Below are positions 10,671 to 29,163 of a stretch of 35,960 nt of DNA, piece by piece. Every line of letters starts with the position of its first letter. Position 1 is the first letter of the stretch. The notes under the pieces were generated by a model. It was given only the letters and a program-made list of their open reading frames with translations, did no database searches and was not told the origin of the DNA. The translations under genes were made by a program, and so were the position numbers. The stretch comes from an uncultured bacterium (GTDB lineage: Bacteria; Planctomycetota; Phycisphaerae; Phycisphaerales; SM1A02): positions 1 to 35,960 of the forward strand of contig CAIWCL010000340.1 in NCBI GenBank assembly GCA_903911205.1, in the 5' to 3' direction.

Positions 10671-10721
10671 CAAACAAGAACGGAAGCCCGATGGGGCACG
10701 CCGAGTGAAACTCAGCACACC

Positions 10722-11693
10722 ATGACGAACGCAGCCAACATCATCCGACAGACTCGCGCGGCACTCGCCGCTGCGTTTGTCGCTTCGATGACGATGGTTG
10801 GGACGATGGTTGGGACGATGGTTTGGACGATGGTTGGGACGATGGTTGGGTCGATGGTTTGCATGACGTCAACCGCTCACGCGCAACTCAACCTCGGTGT
10901 TCCCGAGGAGTTGAAGGGCGTCGACATCATCGAGAATCTTGACGCGCAGTTGCCACTCGATGCGCGCTTCACCGATGACGCTGGCCGTCAGGTGTCGCTC
11001 CGCGATTACTTCGATGGCAAGCGACCAGTGCTGCTGCAACTTGGCTACAACCGTTGCCCAATGCTGTGCTCGCTTGTCTTGAATGGTGCATTCGACGGCC
11101 TCAAGGGTGTCGATTGGACTCCGGGCAACGAGTTTGAAATGGTGTCGGTTTCGATCGACCCGACCGAGACGGCCACGCTCGCGAAGGCAAAGAAGGAGGC
11201 GTATCTCGCCGACTTCGACCGCGCGGGCGCCGCACCGGGAGTGCATTTCCTCACCGGCACGGAAGTGATGTCGAAGGCCGTCGCGGACGCGGTCGGCTTC
11301 CAATTCAAGCGGCAGCCCGACGGCGAGTACGCGCACGCGGCGGCGATTTTTCTCATCAAGCCCGACGGCAAGATCAGCCGCTACATGTACGGTGCCAAGT
11401 TCGAGCCGAAGGATCTGCGTATGGGCCTGCTTGAGGCTTCGCAAGGTCGCATCGGCACGACGCTCGACCGTTTCATTCTGTGGTGCCACATCTACGACCC
11501 CGACGCGCGCGGCTATGTGCTGCAGGCGCGCAAAGTGATGACCATCGGCGGCGCTGTGACGCTCGTCGCCCTTGCAGGCGGACTTGGCGCGTTCTGGCGT
11601 GCTGAACTGCGGAAAAAGAACGAATCGAAGAAGCACGAAGCGAAGAAGCACGAGACGAAAGAGAACGAGTTGACGAACTCCTCGGCGGCATAA
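10722..11693 (+). CDS. sco: SCO1/SenC-type copper chaperone
   Basis: SCO proteins deliver copper to, or reduce, the CuA site of oxidase subunit II, which is encoded by the next gene. The 323-residue product has a signal peptide, made unusually repetitive by a 12-bp tandem repeat and probably cut after AHA. A thioredoxin-like domain follows with CPMLC (Cys112, Cys116) and His205 in YAHAAAIFLI, the three copper ligands of the family. Unlike most SCO proteins it ends with a second helix (VMTIGGAVTLVALAGGLGAFW) and a Lys/Glu/His-rich tail, so the mature protein may be anchored at its C-terminus. Confidence 0.92.
   Translation: MTNAANIIRQTRAALAAAFVASMTMVGTMVGTMVWTMVGTMVGSMVCMTSTAHAQLNLGVPEELKGVDIIENLDAQLPLDARFTDDAGRQVSLRDYFDGKRPVLLQLGYNRCPMLCSLVLNGAFDGLKGVDWTPGNEFEMVSVSIDPTETATLAKAKKEAYLADFDRAGAAPGVHFLTGTEVMSKAVADAVGFQFKRQPDGEYAHAAAIFLIKPDGKISRYMYGAKFEPKDLRMGLLEASQGRIGTTLDRFILWCHIYDPDARGYVLQARKVMTIGGAVTLVALAGGLGAFWRAELRKKNESKKHEAKKHETKENELTNSSAA
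10791..10862 (+). repeat. 12-bp tandem repeat in the SCO signal peptide
   Basis: Six back-to-back 12-base units based on ACGATGGTTGGG occupy these positions; four are identical and two vary. They are in frame and encode Thr-Met-Val-Gly units in the hydrophobic core of the signal peptide. Each gain or loss of a unit would change the core by four residues without a frameshift. Confidence 0.95.
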
Positions 11694-11704: not shown

Positions 11705-12880
11705 ATGACGAGGCGAACGAAAGTGTTGAACATGATCCCCACCCTCCTCTCTCAGGCCACCAATGACCCGGCGCTCGCCGCCGGGCAGCCGGTTACGCCC
11801 AAGACGTTCTGGCTCCCGGAAGGTGCGTCGACGATCGCGCCGGAGATCGACTGGATCTTCAACTTCATCAACTACATCAACTACTTCTTCTTCGTGCTCG
11901 TCATCGGCATCATGCTGGTGTTCATGTGGAAGTACCGTCAGCGCGGCCGAGAGGTCTACGCGCGAGGCCCCAATCACCACACGATGCTCGAACTCGGTTG
12001 GACGATCATCCCAACGATCATCGTCGTGTTCATCTTCTTCATCGGCTTCAAGGGATTCATCATCGCGAAGACCGTGCCGGACAACGCGTACCAAATCGAC
12101 GTCACCGCGGCGAAGTGGTACTGGAAGTTCAAGTATCCAAACGGCGCGACGAGCGACGACCTCTACGTCCCCGCGGGCCGCCCAGTCAAGCTCGTCATGC
12201 GCAGCGAAGACGTCCTGCACTCTTTCTACATCCGCGATTTCCGCGTCAAGCAAGACGTCGTCCCTGGCCGCTACACGAGCCTTTGGTTCCAAGCGGACAA
12301 CCCAACGGAAGGCGAAGACTTCCACCACATCTTCTGCACCGAATTCTGCGGTACGGGCCACTCGGATATGAACCGCAAGGTGTTCGTGCTTCCCGAGTCG
12401 GACTTCGACAGCTGGGTGGTCGAGCAGGGACGTTGGCTCGACAAGGTGACCGACAAAGATCTCTGGTGGAAGGCTGGCCCGCAGCTCTACCGCGCGTGCG
12501 CGAGTTGCCACACGCTCGATGGCTCCGTTGGAACTGGTCCCTCGTGGGGCAACTACGACGGCACGGGCGACGTGTGGGAGCGCACGAAGGCTGGCTCCAC
12601 GCACAAGATTGACGGCGGCAAGAATCTCGGTGACATCATCGGTTCCGGCAAGGAGTACGAGACGCCCGAGGGTTACCTCCGCGAGTCGATTCTCAATCCT
12701 GGAAAGCACCTCGTTGATCCGTACGGCAACGTGATGCCCACCTTCAAGGGACAACTCAGTGATCGCGGCATCCAAGCCCTGATCGACATGATGAAGAACC
12801 TCGACAAGTTCAACAAGGATGGCACGGTCAAGCCCGACGCCATTCCGAATGCTGGCGGGGCCGCCGGCGCAGCGAAGTAG
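11705..12880 (+). CDS. ctaC: caa3-type cytochrome c oxidase subunit II (CuA plus cytochrome c)
   Basis: Subunit II takes electrons and passes them to subunit I via the binuclear CuA centre. The 391-residue product has two helices (about 52-77 and 95-117). Its cupredoxin domain has His172 (VLHSFY) and the loop [12 protein letters not shown] (Cys211, Cys215, His219, Met222), the full CuA ligand set. A fused cytochrome c domain has CASCH (265-269) and a Met ligand at 344 (NVMPTFKG). That fusion defines the caa3 type. ATG 11732 is an alternative start that removes nine residues. It lies 11 bases after the SCO gene. Confidence 0.96.
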
Positions 12881-26664: not shown

Positions 26665-29163
26665 ATGAAGAATACGTACGGAACGAGCCTGCTCGTTGCC
26701 ACCGTCCTCGCGACGGGTGGTTTCACGACGCTGGCGATGGCCCAGGACGAGTGTTCGACCGCTGTTTCCGCCGTGATCGGCGCGAACGCGTTCAACACGA
26801 GCAGCGCAACGACGAGCCCTCAAGCCGTCAGCGATGCACAGTGCACCGGCACCTACCTCTCGTGGGGCACCGCGAACAAGGACGTTTGGTTCTCGTGGAC
26901 CGCGGCTGAAGACGGTCTCGCGACCTTCTCGACCTGCCAGACCGGCTCGTTCGACACCTCGATGGTGATCTACACCGGCCCATGCGGCGCTCTCGCCCAG
27001 GTCGCTTGCAACGGCGACGCCACGGCGGACGCTGGTTGCCAGCAGTACTTCTCGGCCGTGAAGGATTTCGCGGTCACGGGTGGTACGACCTATTACATCC
27101 GCATCGGTGGTTATGACGATGGCACCGCAGTCGCTTCGGGCGCTGGTAGCCTGGGTATCAGCTTCACCGCGGTTGCTGCTGGTTGCGCGGGCTCGACTGG
27201 CCCCTGCGGCTCAGCCCACGCGGGAACCGGCTGCAGCGATGCGGTCTGCTGCTCGGCAGTCTGCGCGATCAACGATTCGTGCTGCTCGATCCAGTGGGAC
27301 GCTGACTGCGTCGCCATCGCGGTCGATGCGTGCGGTATCTACCTCTGCACCCCAGTTGCGGGCGCTCCGGCCAACGACTGCGCTGCGAACGCAACCGTGA
27401 TTTCGGGCACCACCAACAGCCAGTTCAACTTCAACACCGCCACCGCGACGACCGACGGTCCGGATCACCCCGGCGCCAACTGCAACTCGGGTAGCGACAT
27501 CTTCGACCAGGACATCTGGTACAAGGTGACCCCGGCTTTCAACGGCGATTTCGTTGCCTCGACCTGCGGTACGGTCAACTACGACAACAAGCTCGCGATC
27601 TATGACCTCGGTACGGATCCGGCTTCGTTTGACTACAACAACCTCGCAGACGCTCTGCTCGCCTGCAACGACGACGGCGCATCCGGCGCATGCAACACAA
27701 CCACCGGTACGACCTACGCGTCGGAACTCCCGGTCGCTGTCGTTGCTGGTCGCACGTACCTCGTCCGCATGGGCTCGTTCGCCACTGGCGAAACGGGTTC
27801 CGGCACGATCCGCTTCACCGTTCCAGTGGCTTGCGCGCTTGACGCCGCAACCGCTTCGGAAGTCGAGACCTGCGGTTCGGCCACGAACAACGGCTGCAAC
27901 GCCGCTGGTGAGTTCGGCTCGATCGCAGTCGGCGCCACCGTGGGCGGCACCTTCTGGGCCGACGCCGACACGCGCGACACCGACTTCTATCAGTTCTTCC
28001 TCACCGAGCCGGCGCAAGTCACGCTCGATGCGAAGTCGGCCAGCTTGACGACCGTCCTCATCCTCAAGGGTGACCTCACCGTTGCGGATTGCGCGGGCAT
28101 TCAGGTCATCACTGCTGGTAGCGGTTCGTGCCCGAACTCGGCCACCTACTGCCTCGGCGCGGGTACCTACTACGCGTTCGTCGCTCCGGCTGCCTTCACG
28201 GGTATCCCCTGCGGAACCGGCGTCCAGAACAACTACTCGCTCAAGCTCTCGGCCACCCCGGCGACCTGCCCGCTCCTCATCTCGGGCGGTTGGGACGGCA
28301 CCGCGGTTCAGCCTGGCGTTTGCGATAACCCGGGTCCGGACACTGTTGTCACCAGCACCGCAGCTCCAGGCGGCGGTCTCGTGGCCTGCGCCGTGAACCC
28401 AGCGTTCCCGAACTGCAGCGGTGGTGGTACGACCGTCAACTCGTTCGCCCGTTCGATCAACGCTGGCCTCGTTGCTGGCTCGATCTCGTGCATCGACATC
28501 GGCGTCTTCTCGGTTGCTCGTGATGTGAACGCCGCGAACACCGCGTGCGCCAGCTACATCAGCGACATCCCGCTCCCGGCGACCATCGGCATCTACGCCG
28601 ACCTCGACGGTGGCGCACCGCGCTTCAAGACCGCTGACGACGGCGTCGACGGCGGCGACCTCAAGGCGCTCGTCACTCGTGACGTCTTCATCAACGGTGG
28701 TGCATACAAGGCGACGTGGAACCTCGAAACCGAGGCCTGCGTTGAAGACTACGCCACCAAGAACATCGTCATCATCATGGACTGCCCAGACCTCTTCACC
28801 GGTACCGACACGGTTCCGGGCGCAAGCGGCTACGGCATCCGCGCTGGTGGTGGTACCGTCGCTGGCCAGGCCTCGAACACCTACGTTCGTCTGAGCTGCG
28901 CTGACGGCGCTGGTCAGTACGTCCTCGCCGAAACCGTCGGCGCGTCGTTCACGGCCCAGTGGATTGTCAACGTCAACGGCGACAACTCGGGTTGCGGCGC
29001 TGCCTGCCCGGGCGACTTCGACGGCGACGGCTTCATCACCGCTGCTGACCTCTCGACCCTCCTCGGTTCGTGGGGCGGCGCTGGTGGCGACATCGACGGC
29101 GACGGCACGACGACCGCGGCTGACCTCTCGGCCCTCCTCGGCGCGTGGGGTCCCTGCCAGTAA
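26665..29163 (+). CDS. Large secreted Cys-rich protein with C-terminal dockerin-like calcium loops
   Basis: The 832-residue product has a signal peptide (1-26, cut after AMA). Repeated beta-sandwich modules resemble bacterial pre-peptidase C-terminal domains (NKDVWFSWTAAEDG at about 71; DIWYKVTPAFNGDF at about 290; DTDFYQFFLTEPAQVTL near 445). A compact Cys-rich segment lies at 181-223. The end (781-832) has two calcium-loop repeats, DFDGDGFITAADL (784-796) and DIDGDGTTTAADL (809-821), each followed by a G-x-WG turn, and closes with GPCQ. Such paired loops are typical of C-terminal dockerin-like sorting or anchoring domains in planctomycetes. AAGGAG (26652-26657) is the strongest SD in the window, and a strong terminator follows, suggesting abundant expression. 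No enzyme motif is seen. Confidence 0.85.
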   Translation: MKNTYGTSLLVATVLATGGFTTLAMAQDECSTAVSAVIGANAFNTSSATTSPQAVSDAQCTGTYLSWGTANKDVWFSWTAAEDGLATFSTCQTGSFDTSMVIYTGPCGALAQVACNGDATADAGCQQYFSAVKDFAVTGGTTYYIRIGGYDDGTAVASGAGSLGISFTAVAAGCAGSTGPCGSAHAGTGCSDAVCCSAVCAINDSCCSIQWDADCVAIAVDACGIYLCTPVAGAPANDCAANATVISGTTNSQFNFNTATATTDGPDHPGANCNSGSDIFDQDIWYKVTPAFNGDFVASTCGTVNYDNKLAIYDLGTDPASFDYNNLADALLACNDDGASGACNTTTGTTYASELPVAVVAGRTYLVRMGSFATGETGSGTIRFTVPVACALDAATASEVETCGSATNNGCNAAGEFGSIAVGATVGGTFWADADTRDTDFYQFFLTEPAQVTLDAKSASLTTVLILKGDLTVADCAGIQVITAGSGSCPNSATYCLGAGTYYAFVAPAAFTGIPCGTGVQNNYSLKLSATPATCPLLISGGWDGTAVQPGVCDNPGPDTVVTSTAAPGGGLVACAVNPAFPNCSGGGTTVNSFARSINAGLVAGSISCIDIGVFSVARDVNAANTACASYISDIPLPATIGIYADLDGGAPRFKTADDGVDGGDLKALVTRDVFINGGAYKATWNLETEACVEDYATKNIVIIMDCPDLFTGTDTVPGASGYGIRAGGGTVAGQASNTYVRLSCADGAGQYVLAETVGASFTAQWIVNVNGDNSGCGAACPGDFDGDGFITAADLSTLLGSWGGAGGDIDGDGTTTAADLSALLGAWGPCQ

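Follow-up and report, generated by a model that had tools for sequence, protein, structure and literature searches.

The window analysed here is a stretch of 35,960 nucleotides (contig CAIWCL010000340.1 of assembly GCA_903911205.1) from an uncultured bacterium of the Planctomycetota, within the Phycisphaerales. It contains a gene for a copper chaperone of the SCO1/SenC family, and a short minisatellite lies inside the part of this gene that encodes the predicted signal peptide (Table 1). The open reading frame matches Pfam SCO1-SenC with an E value of 4.6e-10, and the next reading frame matches COX2. The score against PF02630 is 40 bits, compared with a curated cut-off of 22.8, which places the protein in the SCO1/SenC family. 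Its relatives of solved structure are 3me7, named as a putative uncharacterized protein (E 1.6e-07), and the SCO protein 4bpy (E 2.5e-04). The defining feature of SCO1/SenC proteins is a CxxxC motif followed by a conserved downstream histidine. Both are present in the window's protein, the histidine being H205, which is aligned with a histidine of 3me7. The CxxxC motif presumably binds copper, and the position of the gene directly before COX2 fits a predicted role in copper binding and delivery to CuA. The protein is the single SCO match in the genome of the window (G000). A plasmid origin of the gene was rejected, as no megablast match was found among 72,556 plasmid records.

Table 1. Position of the SCO gene and of its features in the window
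Feature	Position	Strand	Basis
Gene for a SCO1/SenC-family copper chaperone of 323 aa, immediately followed by COX2	10722..11693	+	ORF, Pfam, solved relatives
Predicted 54-aa signal peptide (34 aa in each sister species)	10722..10883	+	N-terminal comparison
Minisatellite of six 12-bp units, arranged A A B A A C	10791..10862	+	TRF and unit reading
Unit 6 (TCGATGGTTTGC), closest to the single unit of the sister species G002 (GCGTTGGTTTGC, 2 of 12 bases different)	10851..10862	+	DNA comparison
CxxxC motif (C112, C116), intact	11055..11069	+	Read from sequence
Hydrophobic C-terminal segment (residues 272-292), probably a membrane anchor	11535..11597	+	Translation; inference
Second, weaker SCO repeat with about 3 copies of 15 bp, in the lysine/glutamate-rich, charged C-terminal tail	11612..11659	+	TRF

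The Array and Its Units

TRF reports the array at 10790-10859, with a period of 12, 5.8 copies, 94% matches and a score of 126. Only one repeat in the window has a higher score, a 75-bp repeat of 1.9 copies at 29011-29150. This other repeat lies at the end of an 832-aa ORF and encodes segments of the type GDxDGDGxxTAADLSxLLGxWG, which we take to be dockerin-like.

Read unit by unit, the array comprises two copies of ACGATGGTTGGG, one of ACGATGGTTTGG, two more of ACGATGGTTGGG and one of TCGATGGTTTGC, and is translated as TMVG TMVG TMVW TMVG TMVG SMVC. Compared with the four identical units, unit 3 has one base change and unit 6 has three. Tandem units of a multiple of three bases thus lie within a reading frame, so that the array is an in-frame coding minisatellite. 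The original prediction of an in-frame 12-bp minisatellite in the core of the SCO signal peptide has been borne out by TRF, by the in-frame reading and by Pfam. It had also described six repeated TMVG units; the number of units is correct, but TMVG is encoded by only four of them, the third giving TMVW and the sixth SMVC.

The array cannot be ascribed to chance, because order-2 Markov resampling of 61 sampled stretches of G000 yielded no array with at least 3.5 copies. A mobile or dispersed repeat family was ruled out as well. In a scan of the whole genome with a 20-base pattern and up to three mismatches, five matches fell inside the array and two were scattered, with three mismatches each; the SCO unit is therefore confined to one site, and the motifs with at least three copies in the genome sample are all distinct (77 of 77).

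Each unit contains one in-frame ATG, and several alternative starts had been proposed on this basis. Their use is unlikely. The 23 codons before the array are conserved, and internal starts are disfavoured because both arginines of the positively charged n-region (R9 and R12) would be lost.

Comparison with Related SCO Genes

Sixteen genomes of the genus, including G000, were searched. SCO is present in 15 of them, and the N-termini of the other 14 proteins were compared with that of the window. The array is absent from all 14 of these same-genus genes. The nearest two species, G002 (L040) and G011 (L041), are represented in public records by the pond MAG contigs JAIXVI010000283 and JAIYCA010000301. 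Their signals read ...FVASM-ALVC-MTSTAHAQ and ...FVASM-ALVS-MTPTAHAQ, respectively, and that of the window reads ...FVASM-(six units)-MTSTAHAQ. Cleavage would occur after AHA and before Q55, as judged from the AHA-Q that the three proteins share. When the DNA of the window is aligned with both sisters, a single gap of 60 bp appears, equal to five units, and the sisters are left with one unit. A comparison with related SCO signal peptides had been suggested as a check, and it revealed that unit number varies between lineages, with one unit in the two sister species and six here.

The left-over unit differs from unit 6 at two bases in G002 and at three in G011. A T at position 10 of the unit is found in units 3 and 6 and in both sisters, and is absent from the other four units. 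The state of both sisters, together with the absence of the array from the rest of the genus, suggests that a single unit is ancestral and that the 60-bp difference represents a gain. Because G002 and G011 are closely related (dS 0.089), they constitute nearly one witness for the ancestral state.

The mature protein is conserved: over its 260 codons, 239 and 241 residues are identical to those of the two sisters, with dN/dS values of 0.055 and 0.060. These values are no proof of present function, because they mostly reflect the period that preceded the expansion of the array. The roughly 75 bases leading to the array (10717-10790) are nearly identical in the window and both sisters. The 23 codons before the array are base-for-base identical to those of G002 and differ by one base from those of G011. 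The first 23 codons contain no synonymous change in 18 synonymous sites, compared with a dS of 0.97 and 0.88 in the mature part. A special nucleotide constraint on the signal peptide was considered and rejected, since the same sister alignment has other identical runs, as long as 224 bases, which give it a mosaic look; the near-identical signal start is accordingly read as mosaic exchange or as general constraint.

Repeats have been observed around two other SCO genes of the genus. In G009 (L011), a 12-bp doubling in the signal was seen by eye, and the SCO tail carries a 12-bp array of 3.3 copies. In G006 (L010), a 15-bp array of 3.8 copies at 2361-2417 ends 23 bases before the SCO start.

Minisatellites across the Genome

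The genome was sampled through the window and the stretches L047-L106, picked by contig number, which make up 61 stretches and 549,560 of 3,874,628 bases (14%). Arrays were counted as strong when they had a period of 6-40, at least 3.5 copies and a score of at least 80. The sample of G000 contains 44 strong arrays in 549,560 bases (80/Mb), that of G002 10 in 210,658 bases (47/Mb), that of G011 4 in 136,063 bases (29/Mb), and that of the sibling G013 6 in 400,000 bases (15/Mb). One resampled copy of each of the four samples contained none. At a score of at least 50, the observed numbers in G000, G002, G011 and G013 were 161, 41, 22 and 36, compared with 5, 1, 3 and 6 after resampling. In 150,000 bases of E. 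coli, one row with a period of 6-40 and a score of at least 50 was obtained. With a period of at least 10 and at least four copies, arrays are more frequent in G000 than in G013 (40 v 6, p 3e-5). The array density of G000 does not differ significantly from that of its sisters (40 v 10 for G002, p 0.27; 40 v 5 for G011, p 0.19). In G000, 12 of 57 arrays are perfect, some of them at contig ends, compared with none of 31 across the samples from G002, G011 and G013; this surplus suggests that part of the arrays in G000 are young.

The published SATFIND rule (PMC6749651) was also applied, in a re-implementation of our own that is similar, but not identical, to the original. It yielded 35 arrays in the 549,560 bases of G000 (63.7/Mb), and densities of 38.0, 7.3 and 12.5 per Mb in G002, G011 and G013. 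None were detected in 150,000 bases of E. coli, nor in 54,917 bases from 15 loci of other genera of the family. Table 1 of the same paper gives 23.0/Mb as the highest bacterial value, 4.06/Mb for Rhodopirellula baltica and, on the archaeal side, 89/Mb for Methanosarcina vacuolata (PMC6749651). The 63.7/Mb of G000, which refers to our version of the rule and to 14% of a draft, thus stands against the highest bacterial value of 23.0/Mb in that table.

The reading frame appears to act as a filter on these arrays. Among arrays with at least three copies and a score of at least 60, eight at stretch ends having been dropped, the period is divisible by three in 22 of 27 inside ORFs of at least 150 aa and in 11 of 32 outside (Fisher p 5e-4), the ORFs being those of a simple script in which stop-free repeats can open false ORFs. 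With ORF limits of 90 and 200 aa, the p values were 7e-4 and 2e-4. The bias fits a random birth of arrays followed by the loss of frame-breaking cases.

Turnover was examined at six array sites by comparison with the sisters: SCO, L051 and L086, which were informative, and L088, L072 and L096. At two of the three informative sites (SCO and L051), the array is missing from both sisters; at the third (L086), the sisters have one or two seed copies. L051 carries a 10-bp array of 9.9 copies, and 138 bases separate its flanks in G000, compared with 44 in both sisters, where the array cannot fit. At the 14-bp array of L086 (6.3 copies), one seed copy is found in G011 and two copies at a period of 17 in G002; repeats seem to have begun twice at this spot, in different register. 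By eye, the L086 array (11891-11978) has its start at a stop codon and is followed by a terminator-like hairpin. The flanks of L096 were located in G011 only, and its 15-bp array was not called there. Where the samples overlapped by chance, six of nine weaker non-SCO repeats of G000 (2.0-3.3 copies) lay inside an unbroken alignment with a sister, although some of these alignments have 77-80% identity and perhaps involve paralogs. Low-copy repeats are thus often shared, and many of them are older.

Origin of the Array

Generic slippage growth, retained when in frame and tolerated in a forgiving signal peptide, is the likely explanation of the SCO array. One 12-bp unit of the signal code would have been multiplied to six in the G000 lineage, through replication slippage or unequal exchange. 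The final step may have been the doubling of a 36-bp block of three units, as the A A B A A C arrangement suggests. This doubling is proposed because units 3 and 6 carry the sister-like T at position 10. The same generic process would have made dozens of unrelated minisatellites across the genome. Plain slippage is taken as the default cause, and from the sequence comparisons we infer slippage as the process, the doubling of the block and the absence of a selected role. The many unrelated arrays in the same genome mean that the SCO array needs no such role.

Within the signal peptide, the array places mildly hydrophobic residues, in frame and with no added charge, behind the hydrophobic core and ahead of the cleavage site. 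Beyond the last arginine, the uncharged run has grown from 22 to 42 residues. The best 19-residue Kyte-Doolittle mean of the signal is 1.72 in the window, compared with 1.83 and 1.61 in the sisters; the hydrophobic peak barely moves with one unit or six because TMVG averages 1.25, against 3.08 for ALVC. Since no charge is added, the frame is kept and the residues are mildly hydrophobic, SCO export probably persists, and cleavage would be expected at AHA-Q.

Other causes of repeat growth were considered. Loss of repair was rejected as a simple cause, as all three genes examined are present in G000. A PolA-type 5' nuclease domain was identified in 14 of the 16 genus genomes, including G000 (the exceptions being G010 and G014), MutS in all 16, and RecJ in 15, again including G000 (over the cut-off in 14 of them; absent from G007 and found only as a fragment in G011). 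Structure-driven expansion was rejected as well. On the coding strand, the SCO unit has the potential for a two-tier G-quadruplex. Across the motif set, however, neither this potential (16 of 77 motifs, compared with an average of 20.7 over 60 shuffles) nor the folding energy (-0.137 compared with -0.129 per base, sd 0.009) is clearly enriched.

A broader reading is that this Phycisphaerae-like lineage is amid a genome-wide burst of minisatellite birth that brings its density close to the values of the richest archaea and that was caused by a heritable change in its replication or repair; proteins (signal peptides included) would be undergoing rewriting in multiples of three bases, and the SCO array would be a currently polymorphic case. 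This reading is doubtful. The density of G000 is not significantly above that of both sisters, and hence a burst specific to this genome is not supported.

It is unlikely that the longer uncharged stretch has turned the signal into an uncleaved anchor, leaving SCO held in the membrane at both ends. In many other SCO proteins, an N-terminal helix provides the membrane attachment, and the near doubling of the uncharged run would suit such a conversion; however, the added TMVG block is weakly hydrophobic in comparison with ALVC, and the adjoining AHA-Q site is unchanged.

The array had also been interpreted as a tunable expression switch, in which the number of units within a population would tune the signal peptide and, through it, SCO export and cytochrome oxidase assembly. 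Near-identical repeat units are prone to slippage, and unit number does differ between lineages. A phase-variable copy number of promoter tandem repeats was reported for M. tuberculosis in 2025 (PMC12817950). Nevertheless, the array is one of many unrelated ones in the genome, which make a special role unnecessary, and steps of weakly hydrophobic TMVG leave the peak hydropathy nearly the same. A selected length switch is therefore not supported, and it is considered very improbable. An assembly artefact, in which the contig has the wrong number of units, is just as improbable: the draft is fragmented (393 contigs) and seven arrays of at least 3.5 copies lie within 20 bases of stretch ends, where minisatellites may have broken the assembly, but the 72 bp of the array are shorter than an ordinary short read, units 3 and 6 can be told apart from the rest, the array is situated 10.8 kb into the window, and a wrong count would still leave an array.

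Relation to Known Repeat Systems

Bacterial coding VNTRs are usually located in surface proteins or linkers. The SCO array resembles in-frame members of this group in its unit of a multiple of three bases, in its near-identical head-to-tail units and in changing protein length without a break of frame. It differs in being located in a signal peptide, predicted to be cleaved, that belongs to a housekeeping chaperone, and in having been compared between species. With phase-variable contingency loci it shares a repeat tract capable of slippage, but it alters neither a frame nor a promoter, and it is known here as a difference between species. Among the titles and abstract openings listed in searches of the open-access literature on tandem repeats in signal peptides, no report of a minisatellite in a bacterial signal peptide was found. 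The word 'tandem' is absent from the main text of PMC6461901.

Satellite-rich prokaryotes, as described in PMC6749651, are similar to G000 in having many short arrays, the coding ones in multiples of three. In the same survey, Subirana and Messeguer (2019) stated that about 40% of bacterial satellites are unique in sequence (PMC6749651). In lake Planctomycetota, disproportionately many structural variants have been reported, and noncoding deletions were often tied to intergenic tandem repeats; slippage was named as a route for these variants (PMC9426551). They resemble the present case in the phylum, in the attribution to slippage and in the origin of the two sister records from pond MAGs, but they are intergenic and occur within populations, whereas the SCO array is coding and was compared between species (PMC9426551).

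In-frame coding repeats are an already established kind; the SCO array stands out by its somewhat unexpected location and by the interesting genome around it. A bacterial signal peptide has apparently been lengthened from 34 to 54 residues by the growth of a minisatellite at a site that holds one unit in two close relatives. The protein that follows this signal shows no evident harm from the lengthening. More generally, the genome points to a lineage of bacteria that is dense in minisatellites, part of which are young, and that could serve to ask what starts and what limits such repeats in bacteria.
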